The position numbers and the translations under genes were made by a program. The notes beneath the pieces were generated by a model. It had not been told where the DNA came from. It saw nothing but the letters and a program-made list of their open reading frames with translations, and did not search any database. From Chlorobium sp. (GTDB taxonomy: Bacteria; Bacteroidota; Chlorobiia; Chlorobiales; Chlorobiaceae): a stretch of DNA of 33,831 nucleotides. Below, piece by piece: positions 1 to 31,785 of this stretch. The DNA lies in the NCBI GenBank assembly GCA_005843805.1, contig SZXY01000098.1, positions 1 to 33,831 of the forward strand. The letters are read 5' to 3'. Position 1 is the stretch's first letter. The number at the start of each line of letters is the position of its first letter.

Positions 1-382
1 ATAAACCGATCCTGCCTGGCAAAATTTATAATACCGGACTGGAGAAGTTTGAGGACGAACGACAAGACGCACTTCCGGAATGTGGCCGCCCGTTAACATC
101 CATGTTTTAAGCATGAAAGGACATGAGCCCGAAAAACTGTACTTTAAAAGTATCCGGTTTTTGTAGAGGGGGCAAACAACAATAAAGCAAATTTACTTAA
201 AAAATCGCTTGGAGCTGCGATTTCCTACGCAAAGAAAATATTTGGATGCTCATATTACCTTGGCGTATTTTCCATAAAGGTAACTACAAGACCTTGGAGC
301 TGTGTTGCGTTGCGGTGGCAAACCCGTCCTGAAATTACTATGATTTAGAAAAATCATTAAAACTTAAAACAAAGAAATGCGC

Positions 383-1990
383 TTAATTTACACTCACACA
401 GAACGAGATATAAGTCACTTTACGAGGACGAGTTTGAGTGGGACCAACACGTCTGAAAGCAAGTTGAGCAAGATCATCAGCCTCCTGAACGCTAATCTTG
501 GTAAGATCAAAAAATGAATCAAGAACTGCTGGAGTCTTCCACATTAATCGACGATCTTCCATCGTAAGATGAAAATCTCTCTCTTTCTTTTGAGTCATCT
601 CGAAGCCAGCTTGAATGACATTACGTTCAATATCTTCCAAAAAAAGTGATGGTTTGGAACCTCTTAGAATCTGAGGAGAGTGATTATTTGCGATCGAAAG
701 TAACTCCATTCGAAAAGGATCATTCCAATTTGTATTTGCTGTTGATAATGCATTATCGTGAATGGCAAAAAGAAGTCTTCCTTCATTATTTAATCGTTCA
801 CGAGCCCAATTAGCCAATGTCAATACTTCATCAAGGGTAGATGCAATGGCCGGTATGCCTTGATGAACAACTATTACATCAAAAAATTTACCCTTAATAT
901 CTATATCCTCTAAAGAAAAGGAAGGAATACTGCACAGAGCAAAAGTCACTCTCGCATCTTCTCCGATATATGATTTCGCTCTCATCAACATTTGGGGTGA
1001 TTTATCAACAACAGTCAACGTTGCAAGATCCTCATTTAACAGAAGTATCGAAGTTTCGCCCGAACCACACCCCAAGTCAAGCACATGTTTCCCTTTAAAA
1101 GAACAGATATCACGATTAATTTCGATAAGCCCTGACATCTCTGCTTTGGGAAGTTTCGAATTTTGACAAAAATACTGCCATGCTTCCACACTCTCATTCC
1201 ATCTTGATGATGGCTCAAACTTTCCCAAATCAACTCTCGAGTCAGAAATCATTTTCAATGCGTAACGATAATGGTACAAGGCTATTGAGTGCGCACTACT
1301 CAGCGCGTCACTACCATCAGCAGCTATGCTAAACGTCAAAGCATTCTTGGTTTCATATTGACTATAAGCAAGTGATTGGACTATGTAGATCTTATCTGGA
1401 TCTGAGGCCAGGTCTTTACAATAAAAACTGCCAGTGAAACCGACAGGATTTTTGCATTGAAAAAAAGATATCTTTTGAAGATCTGGCAACTGTATTTTAC
1501 TGCTAGACGAAAGGAGCATTGTTGCAATTTCTTGCCTGGCTTTTTTTACAGTTGGCAAGAACGAATTCTCTCTATATATTGATCCAAGCTGATCACATGC
1601 GAAGTAAACATCGATATGCGTCCATTGGTATTTCTGGTTATTTGCAAGTACTTCTTCAAAATATTGTTTCAAACTTTCTTGAGTTATACCAACAAATATC
1701 AAATACTTATAATTTTTCCATGTTCCCAACATAATTGGTTTAACTTGATCACGATAAAGATACCAAGTAACTAATGGCTGATCAGAAACAAGAATTTTTA
1801 GTCTACGAAAAATATTCCTGAGCCTGCTCACTGGATTAAAAAACATCAATAAAATCAACAAGAAGACTACGATAAAACAAAATATAGCAACCAATGAGGT
1901 AGTCTGGATCAAGAACATGATTATAGAAAAAATAGCGATTACTGCCGCAGTAATTTCGATGATTTTTTTTAATAACAATTTAATCTTCAT
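383..1990 (-). CDS. Membrane-anchored protein with C-terminal class I SAM-dependent methyltransferase domain
   Basis: 535-aa ORF; two hydrophobic segments at N-terminus; methyltransferase motif I 'GKHVLDLGCGSGETSILLL' followed by 'LTVVDKSPQML' and 'FFDVIVVHQGI'. Confidence 0.75.
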   Translation of the reverse strand: MKIKLLLKKIIEITAAVIAIFSIIMFLIQTTSLVAIFCFIVVFLLILLMFFNPVSRLRNIFRRLKILVSDQPLVTWYLYRDQVKPIMLGTWKNYKYLIFVGITQESLKQYFEEVLANNQKYQWTHIDVYFACDQLGSIYRENSFLPTVKKARQEIATMLLSSSSKIQLPDLQKISFFQCKNPVGFTGSFYCKDLASDPDKIYIVQSLAYSQYETKNALTFSIAADGSDALSSAHSIALYHYRYALKMISDSRVDLGKFEPSSRWNESVEAWQYFCQNSKLPKAEMSGLIEINRDICSFKGKHVLDLGCGSGETSILLLNEDLATLTVVDKSPQMLMRAKSYIGEDARVTFALCSIPSFSLEDIDIKGKFFDVIVVHQGIPAIASTLDEVLTLANWARERLNNEGRLLFAIHDNALSTANTNWNDPFRMELLSIANNHSPQILRGSKPSLFLEDIERNVIQAGFEMTQKKERDFHLTMEDRRLMWKTPAVLDSFFDLTKISVQEADDLAQLAFRRVGPTQTRPRKVTYISFCVSVN

Positions 1991-2080
1991 CGCTTTTCTT
2001 ATTTATCTTTTGAATTTTTTTTCAAAAAAAATTGAGCTATTGCAATAAAACGATGTCATAAAAAAAATAAGTCGCCGCCT

Positions 2081-2914
2081 TCAATAACTTTCGTCGGGGG
2101 ATGGGAAACTTTTCTGGCGGACGTCCTGGACGTACTGGCGGGCAGCATTTTCAATGTCGGTATTCAGATCGGCGTAACGACGCACAAATCGAGGGTGAAA
2201 TTCCCGGTTGAGACCGAGAATGTCGTTGATGACAAGCACCTGGCCATCACACTCTATGCCTGCACCTATGCCGATGATGGGAATGGTCAGAGAACGGGTG
2301 ACTGAGGCGGCAAGCGCAGAAGGTATTTTTTCAAGGACAATGGCAAAAGCCCCCGCCTGTTCTATAATTCTGGCATCTTCAAGCAGTTGTTCGGCCTCTC
2401 TCTCCTCCTGTGCCCTCACCCTGTAACTGCCGTACTTGTAAATGGACTGCGGCATCAGACCAAGATGGCCCATGACGGGAATACCGACATCGGTAATTCT
2501 CTTGACGGTATCGGCAATAACCCTGCCTCCTTCAAGCTTGACGGCATCACACTCATGTTCTTTCATTATTTTACCGGCGTTGCGTAAAGCCTCCTCTCCG
2601 GAAAGCTGGTAGCTCATGAAGGGCATGTCGATCACCACCATGGCCCTGCCGCTCTCGTCATGCACTCCCCTTACAACGGCTTTTGCATGATAGATCATCT
2701 CTTCAATGGTAATCGGCAAGGTGGTACTGTGGCCGGAAAAAACATTGCTTGCAGAATCTCCTACAAGAAGCACATCGACACCAGCCCGATCGAGAATTCT
2801 GGCCATGGTATAGTCGTAAGCCGTCAGCATCGATATTTTTTCACCATTCTGTTTCATGTCGAGCAACCTTCTGGTGGTGACATGGGATGCTTTCTGCTGA
2901 ACGCTTCTGTTCAT
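2081..2914 (-). CDS. panB: 3-methyl-2-oxobutanoate hydroxymethyltransferase
   Basis: 277-aa ORF with '[58 protein letters not shown]' and '[23 protein letters not shown]', typical PanB. Confidence 0.96.
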
Positions 2915-2926
2915 GGTATTATCTGC

Positions 2927-3748
2927 TTAATGGATTGAATGTTCATGTCCTTCAAAAATATCCGACAATTCGGCTGGGTTAATCTCAACGGCTTCGACTC
3001 CGAGCAAGGTTCCAACTGCACTCCGCATCAGTTCTACAAGTCGGGAATACTCTGGAATGTAACCGAGAATCTCTTCAAGAGAGATGGTTTTCCGCTCCAT
3101 TTCATCTCTGGTCTCCTCAAATCCGTTCCCTGCCGAAAAAGCAATCAACCGGCAAAGCTCTTTGTGCCGTCCTGAGAGTGGCAAAGAACCATGCTGCAAA
3201 AGGACGTTGCGTGTCCTGCGCTGGGCTGATCCAACCATTTTCCGACCATCAACCTGAAGTTCGTTCCGGGCTGATGAGGTAAAACAACTCACGGCACCTG
3301 GCACAGGCGATCCCTGTGGCCTCGAAAGGGTTGAGCGACAGAACTCCGCATGAATGCCAAGAGTTTCAAGGGCAAGCCTGATCACCTCGTGCACCATCCG
3401 GTAAAGCACGGAATTCTGCTCTGGAGAGTCGGCAAAAAAACTGTAGGTAAATTCAGCGGCATGGAATACCGCCCTGCCACCCGTAGGCCTTCTGACAACA
3501 TCGATTCCGGCAGAGTTGCACTTGGCAATATCGATATCCGAACTCTCCTGGTTGTAGCCAAGGGTAACAGCATAGGGTTCCCAGGCATAAAAACGCCAGA
3601 GACAACTCTCTTGACCATACCGCCTCTGAAAACTGCCGTCAAGGAATGCCGCCATAAGACGACGGTCAAACTCCATGTTTTCCTCGCCGGTATGCAGGCC
3701 TGTATCGACAAAATAGACTCTTGAAAAAAGATAGCTCACAACACCCAT
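2927..3748 (-). CDS. Lipoate/biotin protein ligase family protein (LplA-like)
   Basis: 273-aa ORF; 'VRRPTGGRAVFHAAEFTYSF' and 'GRKMVGSAQRRTRNVLLQHGSLPL' match the BPL/LplA/LipB catalytic fold. Confidence 0.9.
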   Translation of the reverse strand: MGVVSYLFSRVYFVDTGLHTGEENMEFDRRLMAAFLDGSFQRRYGQESCLWRFYAWEPYAVTLGYNQESSDIDIAKCNSAGIDVVRRPTGGRAVFHAAEFTYSFFADSPEQNSVLYRMVHEVIRLALETLGIHAEFCRSTLSRPQGSPVPGAVSCFTSSARNELQVDGRKMVGSAQRRTRNVLLQHGSLPLSGRHKELCRLIAFSAGNGFEETRDEMERKTISLEEILGYIPEYSRLVELMRSAVGTLLGVEAVEINPAELSDIFEGHEHSIH

Positions 3749-4799: not shown

Positions 4800-5213
4800 A
4801 TGGAGACAATGTCCATACAGGAAATCCTTGCTTCGTTCCGCCACATTGCCGTTGTAGGACTGTCCGGCAACCCGGAACGCCCAAGCAACAGCGTTGCGCA
4901 CTATATGATGCAGCAGGGATATACCATTTACCCGGTCAATCCAGCTCTTCCAGAGGTATTCGGTCTCCCCTGTTACCCTTCGCTTGTATCTATGCCACCT
5001 GAGGTCAGCAAAACAATTGAAATTGTCAATATTTTTCGCAAATCTGACGATATACCTCCTGTTGTCGACGAAGCAATTGCTATCGGTGCGAAGGTGATAT
5101 GGATGCAGTCAGGAATCGCCAACGAATCAGCAGCAGAAAAAGCACGCAACGCAGGACTCATTGTGATTGAAAACCGCTGTATCGCAGAAGAACACAAGCA
5201 CCTTTTTCAGTAA
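4800..5213 (+). CDS. CoA-binding domain protein (YccU-like)
   Basis: Rossmann-like 'HIAVVGLSGNPERPSNSVAHYMMQQGYTIYPVNP' and 'VIWMQSGIANESAAEKARNAGLIVIENRCIAEEHK'. The listed ORF starts at 4725; ATG at 4800 (or 4809) is a more plausible start. Confidence 0.88.
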   Translation: METMSIQEILASFRHIAVVGLSGNPERPSNSVAHYMMQQGYTIYPVNPALPEVFGLPCYPSLVSMPPEVSKTIEIVNIFRKSDDIPPVVDEAIAIGAKVIWMQSGIANESAAEKARNAGLIVIENRCIAEEHKHLFQ

Positions 5214-5246
5214 AAAAATTCTTTAAAACCCGTCACAAACGAACTC

Positions 5247-6353
5247 ATGTCACTTATCACTGTTGCTCTCATTTTTGGAGGCAGGTCAGCAGAACACGAA
5301 ATATCGATCATCTCGGCGAAATCAATAGCCGCCAACATAAATCCTGAACGCCACAGGGTTATTCCAATCTATATAACTCATGAAGGTGTATGGTTTTGTG
5401 ACGGTATTGCCCGCAAGATTCTCGAACTCGATCTTTCCGCTCTTTTGAGAACGGCATCAGTTGAAGCGGCAGCGACAACCCTCTGCGAGATGGTTCGGCA
5501 ATCGGCAGAAAAACCATTTGACCGTGATTTCAGAGCAGCAGGCATCGATGTCGCATTTCTGGCGCTTCACGGAACTGGCGGAGAAGATGGTCGCATCCAG
5601 GGTTTTCTGGATACCTGTGACCTGCCTTATACCGGCAGTGGCGTTCTGGCCTCGGCGCTCACCATGGACAAGGCTCTCACCAAACTCTGCGTTGCCGATG
5701 CAGCTCTTGATGTAGCGCCATCCATAACGCTTTTGAGCGCAGATTACCATGCCAGCCCTGAAACAACACTCTCCAGGATCGTCCAGGAGTTTGAATACCC
5801 GATATTTGTTAAACCGGCAAGCCTCGGCTCTTCGGTGGGAATCTCAAAAGTGCATAACGCCGACGAACTGCCTCTGGCCCTCGATACCGCCTGCTCGCTT
5901 GACTCGAAAGTTCTGGTCGAAAAGGCAATCAAAGGAAGGGAAATCGAGGTCGCCGTGCTCGGAAATGATAGGCCAATAGCCTCGGTATGTGGAGAAATCG
6001 AACCTGGAAGTGACTTTTACGACTATGAGGACAAGTACATTCACAACTCGGCAAAACTTTTTATTCCTGCCCGCATTCCCGAACAACTCCAGGAAGAGGT
6101 CAGAAATGCAGCGCTCAGGGCATACAAGGCTCTGGGATGCCAGGGTATGTCCCGAATAGATTTTTTTGTTGATGACGAGAGCGAAAGCATTGTCCTCAAT
6201 GAGGTCAATACAATTCCCGGTTTCACCGATATCAGCATGTACCCGAGACTCATGGAAGCAACCGGTATCCCTTTTCCAGAACTTGCAGAGCGCCTGATTC
6301 AACTCGCCCTGGAAAAGAGGAAACAGTCCAGTTCTTCGGGTCAGCGATCCTGA
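5247..6353 (+). CDS. ddl: D-alanine--D-alanine ligase
   Basis: 368-aa ORF: '[22 protein letters not shown]', '[19 protein letters not shown]', '[25 protein letters not shown]'. Confidence 0.97.
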
Positions 6354-24767: not shown

Positions 24768-24791
24768 AGCGCCGAACTCCAGCTCGGCATA
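24768..24791. repeat. Palindromic repeat copy (GCGCCGAACTCCAGCTCGGCA)
   Basis: 'gagcgccgaactccagctcggcat'; on the minus strand reads ATGCCGAGCTGGAGTTCGGCGCTC, beginning at the point where avd coding sequence would start by comparison with 28337. Confidence 0.6.
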
Positions 24792-24799
24792 TTGAAAAA

Positions 24800-24821
24800 A
24801 TTGACAATGGACAATGGACAT
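24800..24821. repeat. Heptanucleotide tandem repeat (GACAATG)n, short
   Basis: 'attgacaatggacaatggacat' downstream of the first NACHT-FGE gene. Confidence 0.7.
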
Positions 24822-24863: not shown

Positions 24864-27857
24864 TCAGATGGACAGATTTTCAGAGTCTCCGAAAGATAAA
24901 GAATGACTGGGCCGAACCACCCGAAAACCAACATCGTAGTACCAGTAGCTCACCGGATGAATGCTGAGCCGGAAGGAGCAACGCAGATAATCAGAAGCGT
25001 AGCCCCAGGAACCGCCGCGCACCGAGCGGGCGGGATTCAAATCTTTTTTTGGCGTATTTTCATCGTAAAGGCTTTCTGTCCACTCCCACACATTGCCTGC
25101 CATATCGTAAAGTCCTTCCGGTGTTGCGCCTTCGGGATAACGACCAACAGGTGTCGTTGCGCCAACATTGTTTCCGAAATTAGCCAATTTTGAGCTTGGA
25201 GCCCCCCTCTTTTTAGGCCAAGGATAATCTCGAACTTTCTTGCCGACTGTTCCTTGCTGGCCCCCTGCTACCCACTCCCACTCAATCTCGGTGGGAAGCC
25301 GGTAAAGCGCTTTATCTCCTTCAAGCAACGAGAGCCAAAGGCAATAGGCTTGGGCAGCATACCATGTTACCGCAACCACGGGTTGATCCTCCCCGTCAAA
25401 TTTGCGTTCTTCATCATAGCCCGATCGAAACAGAGCGGCATTGTTTCCATTACCTTTCTCAAGGTAGTTACCAAACCCGGGCCCCCATGTATTGTTGTTT
25501 GCAATGGTATTCAGCTCTGCACACAATGCGGAGTCCTTTGCCTGTAACGAAGCAATGAAAGAACGGTAGAGCTTGTTGGTTACAGGATACTTGGCAACAT
25601 AGAGATCCTCGACCTGCTCCTTCTTTTCTTTATACGAGTAGATATAGCTTCCGCCTGATATCCTTATATACTCCGCATTATGCTCATTCGGGTTGCGAAA
25701 AGAAGGCTGACGATCTTTCAGGATAATCCGGGAAACAGTAACGACCGAAGAGATTTTTTCCCCGCTTTTGGTTTTTTGCAGTTCAGATGCCCGCTTCAGG
25801 TCAACCAGAGCAAGCAACACCTCTTCAGCCCGATCAGCAATATCCTTGTTTTTCGCAAGACCATCCACCCGGAATTGCTGCAGGGCGTTGAGGGCAGCAG
25901 GTTCCCCTATTGCTTTAAGACAATCGAGTATCACCCGCTGGCGACCAGCCTTGTTTGAGCCATCCTGAAGTTTTTTACATAAAGCATCAACCTTCTTGAG
26001 GGGTGCTTCCTCAATGATACTCTGCAGCAGCGACTGCTGCTCTGACGTCAACTCTTCGCTCTGCGGAGAGTTGAGAAGCTTTTCCATAAAAAGATCGAAT
26101 ATCTCCTCATCTTCCTGGGCTATAAAAAATTTAATCGGTTCATTCCACCAGTCAACTCCAAAAACGGAAACAAGCTTATCGAGAGAGCCTGTGGTTCTCG
26201 CCACTTTTTTGACAAGTTGAACACCTGCAAGATATTCCCGAAATGATTTATGTCTGAATTCATAAAAATCCACATCTTCATTTATCAACAAGCCAGCTCT
26301 TTTTACAAGAAAATCGCAGAAGGCTTCAGCAGAAAGTGGCTGAGCGGAAATAATGTACTGAAGTCGCTCCTGCATTTTTTGATGCATAGCCCCTTTCTCT
26401 GCCTTGTCTGTATTCAACTCCTCCTGCATCCAAAGAGAAACTGGGCCAAGCACCTTTCGAGCGTCATCTGCCGGAAGAATGGCGGGAATCCCTCTGCGCT
26501 CATCCCTCAGTTCCAGCAAATAATCAAGTACAGCATTGTAAAGTTTTACCCTGCTCTTGGGCAGGAATTCCCGCTCTTTCCAGAGAATTGCCATGATCTG
26601 CAAAATCATCGGCACTGCGGCAAGTTGTCGCAACCCCTTGTTTTTATCTTCCTTCAGGTGCGCAACAATCTTTCTGGTTTGTTCTTCTGCTTTAGCCTTC
26701 TGCTGCCGTTGCCACTCTTTTTTGTCAATCTGTTTCTCACTGGGTTCTTTCAGAAAAACCGCTGTGAACCAATTCTTTAAAAATCGCTCCTGCTGTTGAG
26801 GCGTAAAGTCTTTTACATCGGCCCGTTCGTATTCAGCCGCAATCTCAATTCGTTCATCTTTATTATATCCTGTTGCTCGGGATGTTACCACAAAATAGGC
26901 ATCGCTGAACCCGCTCCAGGCGGTATCAATCCACTTGCACGCTTCTCTTCTTTCGGCAGTATTGCTGATTTCATCAAGCCCGTCAAGTAAAACAAGGGAG
27001 GTTCCTCTATGAAGCCACTCTTCGAAAAGCTCCTCCTGAATTGTCTGGTGATGCTTTTTTGCCCAGCGAGCAAGATTGGTTGGCAACGAATCATAACAGC
27101 CTTTTGCATCACGGACAAGGTCGCGCAACGGAAGATAAAAAACGCTGACTGGCCCGGAAAAACCAAGCCTCGTGAGGTGCTTCTGCTTGAGGGCACACAT
27201 TGCATAATACTTTAGCAACGTTGTTTTTCCTGCACCAGGATCACCAATAACCAGCAGCATCCGGCGCTGCTCTTTAAACGCCTGCTGCATAACATTGTCA
27301 GGAGTCATTGGCAGTTCACCCTCGTGCGCTATCTTGCTACCACCCTCTCCATAATCCTTGTCCAGACCTTGACTCCGAAAAAAACTAAGCGGTACAAAGG
27401 TATCGTCGTCAAGGTTGACCTGAACATTCTCAACACCCGGCAAGCCAAGCATTCGGATGTAACCCAACTCTTTTCTTAAAGTTTCATGGTACCTTTTTTT
27501 CTTTTTGCCCGTGTCACAGTAACGTCGCCATTCGGGGTAGATAAATTTAACAACAGCCCATATACCTCCTCCTGTAACAACAAAGATTGTACCAAGAAGC
27601 TTTAGTGTGTCTCCCATGCTCATACCTGCGGCAACACTCTGAACATCAGCATTGTTTTGTTGTTTACCCCTCAAACCTTGCCCGGCAAGCGAATCCGACT
27701 TGTTGCCCGGTTGAACTCCGCCAGATACCACCGCTGGCTCAACCCCGGTACTCTTCGCACCAACCTCTTTTCCATAACCGACACCAACAGTGACTGCATA
27801 AATGAACAGGCCGAGCCAGAGCACCCTCACTATCCTCGCAAAAGAAGTAACTCTCAT
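24864..27857 (-). CDS. Membrane-anchored NACHT NTPase with C-terminal FGE-sulfatase (C-type lectin) domain; putative DGR target protein
   Basis: 997-aa ORF; signal/TM 'VLWLGLFIYAVTVGVGY' plus TM 'LKLLGTIFVVTGGGIWAVVKFIY'; NACHT 'MLLVIGDPGAGKTTLLKYYAM', 'TSLVLLDGLDEISN', 'YFVVTSRATGY'; FGE 'YPVTNKLYRSFI...YRLPTEIEWEWVAGG...GLYDMAGNVWEWTE...SVRGGSWGYASDYLRCSFRLSIHPVSYWYYDVGFRVVRPS'. Confidence 0.92.
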   Translation of the reverse strand: MRVTSFARIVRVLWLGLFIYAVTVGVGYGKEVGAKSTGVEPAVVSGGVQPGNKSDSLAGQGLRGKQQNNADVQSVAAGMSMGDTLKLLGTIFVVTGGGIWAVVKFIYPEWRRYCDTGKKKKRYHETLRKELGYIRMLGLPGVENVQVNLDDDTFVPLSFFRSQGLDKDYGEGGSKIAHEGELPMTPDNVMQQAFKEQRRMLLVIGDPGAGKTTLLKYYAMCALKQKHLTRLGFSGPVSVFYLPLRDLVRDAKGCYDSLPTNLARWAKKHHQTIQEELFEEWLHRGTSLVLLDGLDEISNTAERREACKWIDTAWSGFSDAYFVVTSRATGYNKDERIEIAAEYERADVKDFTPQQQERFLKNWFTAVFLKEPSEKQIDKKEWQRQQKAKAEEQTRKIVAHLKEDKNKGLRQLAAVPMILQIMAILWKEREFLPKSRVKLYNAVLDYLLELRDERRGIPAILPADDARKVLGPVSLWMQEELNTDKAEKGAMHQKMQERLQYIISAQPLSAEAFCDFLVKRAGLLINEDVDFYEFRHKSFREYLAGVQLVKKVARTTGSLDKLVSVFGVDWWNEPIKFFIAQEDEEIFDLFMEKLLNSPQSEELTSEQQSLLQSIIEEAPLKKVDALCKKLQDGSNKAGRQRVILDCLKAIGEPAALNALQQFRVDGLAKNKDIADRAEEVLLALVDLKRASELQKTKSGEKISSVVTVSRIILKDRQPSFRNPNEHNAEYIRISGGSYIYSYKEKKEQVEDLYVAKYPVTNKLYRSFIASLQAKDSALCAELNTIANNNTWGPGFGNYLEKGNGNNAALFRSGYDEERKFDGEDQPVVAVTWYAAQAYCLWLSLLEGDKALYRLPTEIEWEWVAGGQQGTVGKKVRDYPWPKKRGAPSSKLANFGNNVGATTPVGRYPEGATPEGLYDMAGNVWEWTESLYDENTPKKDLNPARSVRGGSWGYASDYLRCSFRLSIHPVSYWYYDVGFRVVRPSHSLSFGDSENLSI
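24909..25034 (-). repeat. Putative DGR variable region VR1 (3' end of the 24864-27857 CDS)
   Basis: 126-nt segment (codons 942-983) aligned with 28489-28614: 15 substitutions, all at codon positions 1/2, none at position 3; 24-nt adenine-free 3' end GTTGGTTTTCGGGTGGTTCGGCCC. Confidence 0.85.
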
Positions 27858-28109
27858 AAATATTTCCAGTCAACCGTTAACAATGTTTTTTTCCTTGTTT
27901 CACTTCTGATTCCCAACGAGCGCAAAAGGTTGCGGGTATCGGCCTGCCGGGCAATTGTCATCTCTACAAGCATTACAGAGGTGAAAGAAACGTAAAGAAA
28001 TATAGCACAATCAATCAAAAACAAAAAAATAACTTGGGACGTTGTTCAATAGCATCAATAAATCACTAAAAGAATTCAGTCGAATATGCTTTTTGGCAAA
28101 TCTTCCGAG

Positions 28110-28337
28110 TCACAGTAAATGAAAAAAATGCTCAATTGCAGAGCTGGGGCTCTGCATTCCCGGCCTGCTCCAGAACTTATTGGCAACCCCCAACAGCTCG
28201 GTAAACTCCAGCACTGCATTTTCAAGCCGAACAGCAATGCTGAACCGGTAGCTTTTCGGAAATTTCCCCGTATGACACAGCAGCCATTTCGAAAAATCAT
28301 AGGCCCTTTTGATAATCAGCATTTCGTGATGCGGCAT
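28110..28337 (-). pseudogene. avd: Truncated DGR accessory protein Avd (four-helix bundle family)
   Basis: 'MPHHEMLIIKRAYDFSKWLLCHTGKFPKSYRFSIAVRLENAVLEFTELLGVAN' resembles the N-terminal half of Avd/bAvd ('YD...W......FP+S.RF......E....+..E.L'); the rest (from about 28178 down) is unrelated, with a palindromic repeat, and stops at 28110. Confidence 0.7.
28138..28156. repeat. Palindromic repeat inside the avd remnant (TGCAGAGCTGGGGCTCTGCA)
   Basis: 'gcagagctggggctctgca': near-perfect palindrome, related to the AGCTCCAGCT elements at 23061 and 24768. Confidence 0.5.
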
Positions 28338-28349
28338 GGCGAAAAAATT

Positions 28350-28396
28350 GACAATGGACAATGGACAGTGGACAGTGGACAGTGGACAGTGGACAA
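28350..28396. repeat. Heptanucleotide tandem repeat (ACAATGG)2(ACAGTGG)4
   Basis: 'gacaatggacaatggacagtggacagtggacagtggacagtggacaaaag' between the second NACHT-FGE gene and the avd remnant. Confidence 0.9.
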
Positions 28397-28452
28397 AAGA
28401 CATTTCCCGCCCGACTTTGCTCAAAAAAAATCTTTTTCAGAGTTTCAGATGG

Positions 28453-31400
28453 TCAGATTTTCAGAGTTTCCGAAAGATAAAGAAGACTGGGCCGAACCAC
28501 CCGAAAACCAACATTGAAGTTCCAGTTGCTCTCCGGATGATAGAAGTCCCGGAAGGAGCAACGCAGATAATCAGAAAGGTTGTCCCAGGAACCGCCGCGC
28601 ACCGAGCGGGCGGGTTTCCAAAACTCATCTGACGTATTTTCATCGTAAAGAGTTTCCGTCCACTCCCACACATTGCCCGCCATATCGTAGAGCCCTTCCG
28701 GTGTGGCTCCTTCGGGATAACGGCCAACAGGTGTCGTTGCGCCTTCATGTTCATTATAGTTGGCAAGCAATTTTGACGGTTCTTTCTCTCCCCAAGGATA
28801 GCTTCTGTTCTCTTTTCCGGCGGCGGCATATTCCCACTCCATTTCCGATGGCAAGCGGTATAGGTCACAACTATTATTCTCCAGCAAAGAGAGCCATAGA
28901 CAATAGGCTTTTGCAGCATACCATGTTACACCCATCACTGGCTGATCATCTTTATTGAATCGTTTGTCGTTATTGTAATAAGATGTAAAAAGATTTGCTA
29001 TGTCTTTTTCACCCTTCAAATAACCACTGAATCCCGTGTCACTCTCTGCCATTGCAAGCAAGCGCTGTTTATAGCTTTCCAGAGGCAATGCATAATCGCC
29101 GGACGTTTTTCCTGTGTGCAGGTAACTGATGAATTGACGGTAAAGCCTGTTGGTCACCGTATATTTAGCCACATAGAGGTCGGGTAACGTTTCCTGTTGC
29201 TTCGTCACTGAGTAGGTGAAGGTGCCGCCTTTGATGAGAATATATTGATCGCCAAGTGTGTCCGAGAGCACTTCCGCAGAGCAGGGCAAATCCGTGGTTC
29301 CGGTGATCTCGCAGGCAAGACGCTGCATATCGGCCTCTTCGGTAATACCAGCATCAGAGAACTTTCGAACCGCTTCAAGGGCTTCGGGTTTGCCGATGGT
29401 TTTGAGGCATGAGAGAATGTAGCGCTGCCGGTTGGTTGTTGTCAGGGTATTCAGCAGCTTCTTTTGCAATGCTGTAATCTTCTTCTGAGGAGCTTCGTTT
29501 ATGATGGTAACGAGCAGATCCTGCTGCTTTTGCGTGAACTCCTTGCTGACCGGAGAGTCAAAAAGCTTTTGCATAAAGGCATCAAAAAGTCCGGCATCCG
29601 CCTGCCCGATAAAAAACCGGAGCGGTTCTTCCCACCAGTCGTCGCCGAAATGCTTGACCAAAGCGCCGAGAGAACGGGGGTTTGAGTTCATTTTTTTCTC
29701 GAGCTGAACTCCAGCCATGTACTCCCTGAATGATTTATGCCGGAAGAGGTACTCCCTTTCGCCATACTCGACAAGCAGCCCTGCACGGTCAACAAGGTTT
29801 TGGCAAAACTCCGGTGCAGTGGGTGCCTCTTTGAGCGTATCCAGCTCCTGCTGCATCTGTTGCTGCATCCCGCTTCTGGAAGCTTCATCTTTTTTCAGTT
29901 CCTCCTGCATCCAGAGCGAAACCGGCGTCAGCACCCGCCGTGCATCTTTGGCGGAAAGCAGTGGGAAAAGCTCCTTTTGACGGTCACGATAGTCAAGGAT
30001 ATAGTTCAGTGCTGCGTCATAAAGCTCCACACGAGTTAACGGCAGATATTGACGCTCTTTCCAGAGAATGGCCATAATCTGCAGGAGCATGGGCACGGCG
30101 GCAAGTAACTGCAGGCTCTTGTTCTCCTCTTTTGCCAAAAAGGCAATAATAGTTTCGGCTTTTTTTCGGGCTTTTCCCTGCTGCCGGGCTTCCCACTCCT
30201 CATGAGTTAATTTTGAAGAAGGCAGTTCACGCAGAAAGGCTGCCTGAAACCACTTCTCCAGAAATTCCGCCTGCTGCTCCTGCGTAAAGTCCATGATATC
30301 GGCCCGAACATGGCGCGACCTCAGCTCGATGCCATCTCCTTTCCTGTACCCCGTACTTCGGGAGGTTACCACTACGCATGCTTTCGTAAATCCGGTAACA
30401 ATCCGGTCAATCCAGTCACACGCCTTTATTCTCGCTGCGGGATCACTGATTTCATCGAGCCCGTCAAGCAAGACCAATGTTACCCTGTGATGCAGCCAGT
30501 CGGAAAAAAAGGAGTCCGAAACACCGAGCGCACGCCCCTCAGACCACGCCGACAAGTTCTTCGGCAGTGAGTCGTAGTCGCCACTTGCGGTTGTAATGAG
30601 CTCGCGCAACGGAAGGTAGAGCACCACCACAGGCTTGCTGAAACCAAGCTTTTTATACCCCTCGTTTTCAAGGCAAGAGAGCGCGTAATGCTTCAGGAGT
30701 GTTGTTTTTCCTGAACCAGGATCGCCAACCACAAGCAGAAGCCGGTTCTTCTTAAACACCAGACTCATCACCTCTTCAGGAGAGCGACTTTGCGACTCCT
30801 TTTGCCATTCATGCAAAGCTTCCGGCATGAATCGCTTCTCGCCACGCCATGTATCAGAAAGATGCAACGAGACAAAGGTATCGGTCAAGGTGACCGGAAT
30901 GCTCTCGAGCGCATGGGTACCGAGAAGGCTTGTTGTGCCAAGTTCCTCCTCAAGAGCACTCTGGTATCGCTCTAAAGCTTCTTCGGCACTCAACGGCACC
31001 ACAACCTCTTCAACGCCTTCCCCACCGCTACCAGAACAAAACCACCTGCGCACCTGCATATCGAGATGATGAACAAGCTTGTCTCGAAACTGGTGGCAAT
31101 CATCATACTCCACAACCAGTGCACGCTTTTGTATCGATGCCCTGAACTTTTCAAGCTTCGTTTCCTGCTTTTTATCAACCTTTTTTCGCGAAATGGGAGC
31201 ATTGGAAAAATAAAGCATCACCTTTTTGCCCATTGTCAACATCCGCTGCACCTCCTCAACCGCACCACCGGGAGCTACACCGGTAGGAGTACCAATCTTC
31301 GTCCAGAAAATACCGATGGCAAAATCACAGTTATCGACAATCTGGCGATTGATAATCCCCTGCGTCCGATCCCCGGAATCAGGAGCGGTATGCGATTCCC

Positions 31401-31530
31401 ACAGCACCGCATCCAGCGTCAATTGCCGCTCCTCACTGTTGCGAATATTCCACTCCTTGATCACCGTTTCAGCAATCAGCCGCTCATCAGCAACATCAGA
31501 GGGCGACGCAATGAGAACCTTTATTTTCAT
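28453..31530 (-). CDS. DUF4062/TIR-like - NACHT NTPase - FGE-sulfatase (C-type lectin) protein; putative DGR target protein
   Basis: 1025-aa ORF; N-term 'MKIKVLIASPSDVADERLIAETVIKEWN...VDNCDFAIGIFWTKIGTPTGVAPGGAVEEV' (DUF4062-like); NACHT 'LLLVVGDPGSGKTTLLKHYAL', 'VTLVLLDGLDEISD', 'ACVVVTSRSTGY'; FGE 'YTVTNRLYRQFI...YRLPSEMEWEYAAAG...GLYDMAGNVWEWTE...SVRGGSWDNLSDYLRCSFRDFYHPESNWNFNVGFRVVRPS'. Confidence 0.92.
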   Translation of the reverse strand: MKIKVLIASPSDVADERLIAETVIKEWNIRNSEERQLTLDAVLWESHTAPDSGDRTQGIINRQIVDNCDFAIGIFWTKIGTPTGVAPGGAVEEVQRMLTMGKKVMLYFSNAPISRKKVDKKQETKLEKFRASIQKRALVVEYDDCHQFRDKLVHHLDMQVRRWFCSGSGGEGVEEVVVPLSAEEALERYQSALEEELGTTSLLGTHALESIPVTLTDTFVSLHLSDTWRGEKRFMPEALHEWQKESQSRSPEEVMSLVFKKNRLLLVVGDPGSGKTTLLKHYALSCLENEGYKKLGFSKPVVVLYLPLRELITTASGDYDSLPKNLSAWSEGRALGVSDSFFSDWLHHRVTLVLLDGLDEISDPAARIKACDWIDRIVTGFTKACVVVTSRSTGYRKGDGIELRSRHVRADIMDFTQEQQAEFLEKWFQAAFLRELPSSKLTHEEWEARQQGKARKKAETIIAFLAKEENKSLQLLAAVPMLLQIMAILWKERQYLPLTRVELYDAALNYILDYRDRQKELFPLLSAKDARRVLTPVSLWMQEELKKDEASRSGMQQQMQQELDTLKEAPTAPEFCQNLVDRAGLLVEYGEREYLFRHKSFREYMAGVQLEKKMNSNPRSLGALVKHFGDDWWEEPLRFFIGQADAGLFDAFMQKLFDSPVSKEFTQKQQDLLVTIINEAPQKKITALQKKLLNTLTTTNRQRYILSCLKTIGKPEALEAVRKFSDAGITEEADMQRLACEITGTTDLPCSAEVLSDTLGDQYILIKGGTFTYSVTKQQETLPDLYVAKYTVTNRLYRQFISYLHTGKTSGDYALPLESYKQRLLAMAESDTGFSGYLKGEKDIANLFTSYYNNDKRFNKDDQPVMGVTWYAAKAYCLWLSLLENNSCDLYRLPSEMEWEYAAAGKENRSYPWGEKEPSKLLANYNEHEGATTPVGRYPEGATPEGLYDMAGNVWEWTETLYDENTSDEFWKPARSVRGGSWDNLSDYLRCSFRDFYHPESNWNFNVGFRVVRPSLLYLSETLKI
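28489..28614 (-). repeat. Putative DGR variable region VR2 (3' end of the 28453-31530 CDS)
   Basis: 126-nt segment (codons 973-1014) aligned with VR1; retains several AAC/AAT codons (e.g. AAC TGG AAC TTC AAT) where VR1 has TAC/TAC/TAC/GAT. Confidence 0.85.
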
Positions 31531-31785
31531 ATAGGGGACGTTGTTCGATAGGATAAGAAGTCAAAGAGTAAATGTTCTTGCACGTATACCAAAAACGATG
31601 AAAGAAAAGTATTTTAATATACAACAATCGCCACATAACAGAAAATCCCCAAAGTATGGGACGATCTTCATTTCACTCAGTTGCACATTTTTCAGGCAGA
31701 AAAAATCTTCCGCTCTCACTCAGAAAGCCACATTTCTAATCAATATACCTCTCTAAATGTTTCTGTCCGTTCACCAAAGACCAGG

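Follow-up and report, generated by a model that had tools for sequence, protein, structure and literature searches.

The stretch of DNA analysed here (the window) is the whole of one Chlorobium contig, C181, of 33,831 bp, from an assembly of 2.38 Mb in 208 contigs. It was compared with same-genus (Chlorobiaceae) genomes, those with public names being Chlorobiaceae MAGs. The features of interest lie on the minus strand and are collected in Table 1. They include two large target genes (T1 and T2), the first part of an avd gene of a diversity-generating retroelement (DGR), here avd', and a short piece of a DGR reverse-transcriptase (RT) gene (RT'). Because RT' lies downstream of avd', the order of the locus is target 2 - avd' - 225-bp insert - RT' - target 1.

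Table 1. Coordinates of the features at the avd' locus
Feature	Coordinates	Strand	Description	Basis
T2	28453..31530	-	target 2, 1025 aa: DUF4062-like N-terminus, NACHT, C-terminal FGE-sulfatase/C-type-lectin domain	ORF, Pfam
VR of T2	28480..28600	-	approximate bounds	core motif 28533-28566
avd'	28179..28337	-	53 codons of avd, helices 1 and 2	Pfam and NF033474 profiles, DNA/protein comparison, model of intact relative
Continuation of avd' ORF	28110..28178	-	in frame to the stop codon, unrelated to Avd, peptide KFWSRPGMQSPSSAIEHFFHLL	
Insert	27954..28178	-	225 bp between avd' and RT', mostly AT-rich	
Palindromic repeat	28137..28160	-	dispersed, 24 bp, GGAATGCAGAGCCCCAGCTCTGCA	arms 28137-28144 / 28149-28156
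RT'	27854..27953	-	3' end of DGR RT gene, ARQADTRNLLRSLG...	DNA match to relatives' RT ends
T1	24864..27857	-	target 1, 997 aa: hydrophobic N-terminus, NACHT, FGE domain	ORF, Pfam
VR of T1	24900..25020	-	approximate bounds	core motif 24953-24986

The avd fragment and what follows it

The avd' reading frame begins with an ATG at 28337, with an in-frame TTG start further upstream at 28424, and ends at a stop codon at 28110-28112. It lies 115 bp downstream of T2, whose stop codon is at 28453, and has the same orientation. An earlier note, made from the sequence alone, had described this ORF and its peptide, and both are as it gave them. The note had also taken the peptide to be Avd-like, which the profile searches bear out. 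The first part of the peptide (MPHHEM...GVAN, 28337-28179) matches positions 1-49 of 104 in NF033474 (NCBIfam DivGenRetAVD, E=3.4e-9) and positions 1-49 of 107 in the Pfam bAvd family PF22296 (E=1.8e-4), both under the curated cut-off (for PF22296 the gathering score), as half a domain would be. At the DNA level, about 170 bp of avd' align at 85-87% identity with the intact avd genes of three genomes of the genus; its protein is 79-85% identical to the intact Avds of same-genus genomes. A profile search of the contigs found no other member of the Avd family in the genome. Beyond 28179 there is no further similarity and the ORF runs into unrelated sequence, as the note had it. The contrary case that it named, a full-length small protein conserved as is, is ruled out by the 105-112 residues of the Avds of close relatives and by truncated copies that each end differently.

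To judge the structural extent of the fragment, the intact Avd of Chlorobium sp. L227-S-6D was modelled with AlphaFold2 (27-sequence alignment, pLDDT 92); in Foldseek the model matches the solved Avd structure of BPP-1 (4dwl) and that of a DGR ribonucleoprotein (8ub7). The helices of this model span residues 3-23, 28-53, 59-81 and 87-109, thus residues 1-53 of avd' are exactly helices 1 and 2 of the four, and the "first two helices" of the earlier note were an exact description. Half of the four-helix bundle is missing, going by the relative's model. In BPP-1, editing drops to background when any one of Avd, RT and the template repeat (TR) is inactivated (PMC12875486). Since each of them is needed there, a half-Avd would be expected to be non-functional, and avd' without two of its four helices is probably inactive. 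The same four-helix fold is found in the 23S rRNA intervening-sequence protein family (PF05635; 2gsc, Foldseek), which matches other loci of this genome, but not avd'. Compared with its two nearest intact relatives, avd' has a dN/dS of 0.16-0.25, which is mildly raised over the 0.13 between those two relatives and the 0.04-0.13 of most other avd pairs. So mild a rise points to a recent truncation or to a test without enough power.

RT' is short, with a strong match of about 42 bp and about 100 bp overall. Over 41 bp it shares 98% identity with the RT end in G020:C36, and over the whole stretch 73% with G003:C4:537480-537592, where the alignment runs on into the start of the next target. Its TGA overlaps the ATG of T1. 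The insert that separates RT' from avd' holds a palindrome with 8 copies in the same genome (up to 3 mismatches), compared to 0 for the reversed control, and with further copies across the genus. A blastn search of the 225 bp against all collected loci returned only this palindrome and two short matches to target leaders. These matches, in the AT-rich part at 27954-28134, are short and weak, and are to the 5' leaders of T2 (31535-31563) and of a paralogous target on contig C134. Going by these matches, part of the insert may be a new leader gained by T1. A scan of 27840-28500 for sigma-70 promoters and terminators found none on the coding strand. Tandem GTCCACT/GTCCATT heptamers are present at 28357-28410, upstream of avd', and a similar spacer at 24785-24820, downstream of T1; related copies are dispersed in the genus.

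Target genes and their variable repeats

The Pfam E-values of T2 are 1.6e-46 for the FGE domain (PF03781) and 5.7e-15 for NACHT, and only 0.044 for DUF4062; its N-terminus shares 42-66% identity with the corresponding part of relatives' targets. The C-terminal FGE domain of T1 matches PF03781 with 2e-41, and the first 130 aa of T1 resemble both targets of a Chlorobium sp. L227-S-6D locus (L067). In both genes it is this C-type-lectin/FGE fold that bears the variable repeat (VR).

The C-terminal VRs of T1, T2 and the C134 paralogue differ from each other at 22-23 of about 118 columns. As an independent guide to the template adenines of these VRs we used the TR of another species. The template has an A at 21 of the 22 testable variable columns versus 11 of the 95 constant columns (Fisher 3e-14), and the single variable column that is not an adenine falls outside the VR. 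Variable columns are found at codon position 1 in 12 cases, at position 2 in 9 and at position 3 in one, as expected for AAC codons. The other 95 columns, including 18 fourfold-degenerate sites, are identical in all three genes, while the DNA 100-600 bp upstream is only 58-73% identical. On the strength of this adenine pattern, T1 and T2 are genuine DGR targets, and a single TR wrote the VRs of T1, T2 and the C134 paralogue, recently relative to the divergence of the genes. The non-adenine sequence of these VRs was seen in those three VRs only and in 0 of 60 other genus genomes, and neither the window nor the assembly contains a TR for them. In BPP-1 a stem-loop follows directly after the VR. 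A 7-bp stem can be drawn at the corresponding place in both T1 and T2; it is no better than in shuffled sequences, and there is no perfect inverted repeat.

Probable loss of the cassette core, and the machinery elsewhere in the genome

Intact DGRs with the order target - avd - TR - RT are present in at least 10 related loci, and a second target comes next where the contig continues. The target-avd order and the synteny with relatives that the earlier note had brought up are both found, with T2 upstream of avd' on the same strand and intact target - avd - TR - RT - target loci in related genomes. In the window, avd' stands between a VR-bearing target and the RT side, with the TR absent and about 100 bp of the RT 3' end in place of an intact RT. 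The DGR origin that had been proposed is supported by the Avd match, the RT remnant and the adenine-restricted VR differences of T1 and T2. The proposed loss of the avd 3' half, the TR and the RT holds for the first two, but has to be amended for the RT, given that its 3' end remains.

Among the closest known counterparts are the DGR cassettes of Chlorobiaceae with NACHT-FGE targets, for instance that of Chlorobium sp. L227-S-6D (SZXV01000002, L067/L124), which has the order target-avd-TR-RT-target, an Avd of the same family (83% over the fragment), a common RT 3' end and similar VRs. Unlike that cassette, the locus described here has an avd cut after helix 2, no TR and only the 3' end of the RT. 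The same gene order in intact relatives, together with an RT tail in the expected place, supports a lost cassette, and we consider it very probable that avd' is the 5' half of a DGR avd left after loss of the target2-avd-TR-RT-target1 core, with both targets kept. In the history we propose, an ancestral RT-Avd complex would have copied TR RNA with errors at adenines (the adenine pattern is observed, and the biochemistry is carried over from BPP-1), and this copy would then have been written into the VRs of T2 and T1. A deletion/insertion would have removed avd helices 3-4, the TR and all but the last RT codons, with both NACHT-FGE sensor genes retained through the deletion. The RT tail was probably kept because it carries the region just before the T1 start codon.

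T1 and T2 might instead always have been remote targets, with target and partial avd copied here and a complete cassette never present. Targets without an RT of their own are common in this setting (C134, C89 and the L134 pair with partial avds). However, an RT 3' end is found between avd' and T1, where an intact cassette would have it, and the similarity extends up to the T1 start codon. A copied target and partial avd would not bring an RT end with them, which argues against remote targets and makes this history very unlikely.

The search for an intact cassette elsewhere, which the earlier note had suggested, was successful only for the RT. The assembly has no intact avd or TR of the lost type. 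It does have an intact RT of that type on contig C170 (L008, 3085-4248), 77-83% identical to the full-length RTs of relatives. This contig stops about 80 bp before the TR would be expected, thus the avd and TR beside this RT are unassembled. Just behind the RT is a small gene pair (664-954 and 951-1301 in L006 coordinates) that we take, by eye, to be RelE/Phd-type toxin-antitoxin-like. Contig C94 (L009) of the same genome carries at 18-3290 a complete DGR of an unrelated type, made up of an HRDC-like accessory gene, RT, TR (about 1475-1612) and a target of TIR-like/FGE type. The TR has an adenine at each of the 16 positions where it differs from the VR, and the contig ends inside the VR. A second VR family, distinct from that of T1, T2 and C134 and closer to the TRs of relatives, is found on contigs C89 (L019) and C177 (L022). 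The C177 copy is frame-disrupted, and contig C77 probably continues into C177.

After the proposed loss, the VRs of T1 and T2 would now be frozen, unless a TR that fits them survives in the assembly gap by the C170 RT, in which case they could still be rewritten, though only in trans. If the TR there matched the T1, T2 and C134 VRs, these would be served in trans; if it matched the C89/C177 family, T1 and T2 would be frozen.

An assembly error could be another source of the observed arrangement, the avd-TR-RT being in the cell and dropped or collapsed by the assembler. Several of the 208 contigs do break at or near VR/TR sequence (C94, C89, C170 and C177), and neither the avd nor the TR that should precede the C170 RT is in the assembly, but the junction is a 225-bp insert with a genome-wide palindromic repeat and not a direct VR/TR or avd/RT join, it lies inside a 33.8-kb contig, similar scars are seen in other assemblies, and the colinear gene order argues against a chimeric junction even though the basis is one assembly, all of which leaves this explanation highly improbable.

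Similar scars in Chlorobiaceae and their meaning

Several other Chlorobiaceae loci carry comparable scars. Codon 51 of avd is joined to RT residue 305 in G042:C160, and about codon 60 to about RT residue 337 in G020:C69, where the start region is lost. In the second copy of G014:C3, 62 codons of avd come before a palindrome, a remnant of the RT leader and the tail of the RT. The avd of G028:C108 is joined in frame to an FGE domain, and in both L064 and L097 an avd piece runs directly into RT 3' sequence. At G042:C224 (L066, about 5100-5346, minus strand) avd breaks off at codon 76, where the spacer that lay behind the TR takes over; the TR is gone, and an intact RT without TR or full Avd is left between two targets. 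L147 has a full-length but frameshifted avd with the RT reduced to its tail. A Chlorobaculum sp. MAG (L134, JAAXWU010000011) has two targets, each followed by an N-terminal avd part (2318-2680 and 5992-6345) fused in frame to a C-terminal fragment, presumably of a DNA alkylation repair protein from its looks. We judged the independence of these events from their differing junctions, and by this comparison the loss of the DGR core with retained targets is a repeated one.

Some further candidates were not carried forward. We claim no hot spot for breaks in avd: about seven copies break at codons 51-63 but others elsewhere (L150/L152 near codon 38 and G042:C224 at 76, with L147 full length), and some of the copies depend on each other. 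Also set aside were truncated Avd-like matches in G012, G035, G037 and G042:C51, which are of a different type (MALYYDLPVYRDVY...) with no adjoining target. The join of G020:C69 holds the run TTTCAGGG, which is also present at a relative's RT end; the matching avd side could not be shown, and microhomology at this junction stays a hint.

A short Avd could also be functional. The two-helix protein would then be produced and maintained by selection, perhaps because it regulates or inhibits the RT-Avd complex that remains. The cut of avd' exactly at the end of helix 2, the several other truncated copies that end at codons 51-63 and the low dN/dS of avd' would all fit with this. Taken further, truncation at or shortly after helix 2 (about seven copies) would itself be selected, and a mini-Avd would regulate or block RT-Avd complexes, leaving T1 and T2 deliberately frozen or controlled in trans. 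However, the tails after the cut are all different, the junctions differ among genomes and some copies are broken (G020:C69 without its start region, L147 frameshifted), on which grounds a conserved short Avd was rejected. The avd pieces of L064 and L097 continue into the RT as expected from deletion, and where members of the genus carry an avd of this type, it is in most cases full-length. We thus find a functional short Avd hard to credit, and the selected mini-Avd equally so, and return to loss of the core as the preferred reading.

Compared with the BPP-1 DGR (Avd 4dwl), the intact relatives have the same Avd family and fold, and adenine-specific VR/TR differences are common to both; BPP-1 differs in having a phage tail-fibre target and a complete cassette. 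Decay that spares the targets is known already from Thiohalocapsa PB-PSB1, where MITE-like arrays replaced the RT of DGR 4 and 5 and the TR of DGR 7, and where the DGR 4 and 5 targets are explained by trans activity of DGR 2 (PMC10907252). RT or TR were lost there with MITE-like repeats in their place, and the STAND/CLec targets stay, some of them diversified in trans. That lineage is a different one; its repeats match the terminal repeats of intact IS elements, and population reads show which of its targets are active (PMC10907252). The Chlorobium locus is a new case of this known kind of decay, in a different phylum.

The finding gives independent confirmation that the two window genes are DGR targets though no RT or TR stands beside them. 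This DGR would have lost its engine, yet two diversified NLR-like, immune-sensor-like genes were kept. Whether such sensors without an engine are frozen specificities or are still rewritten from another locus is a question that can now be tested. From the way these scars recur among relatives, DGR cores seem to be commonly gained and lost around persistent NACHT-FGE targets in Chlorobiaceae.
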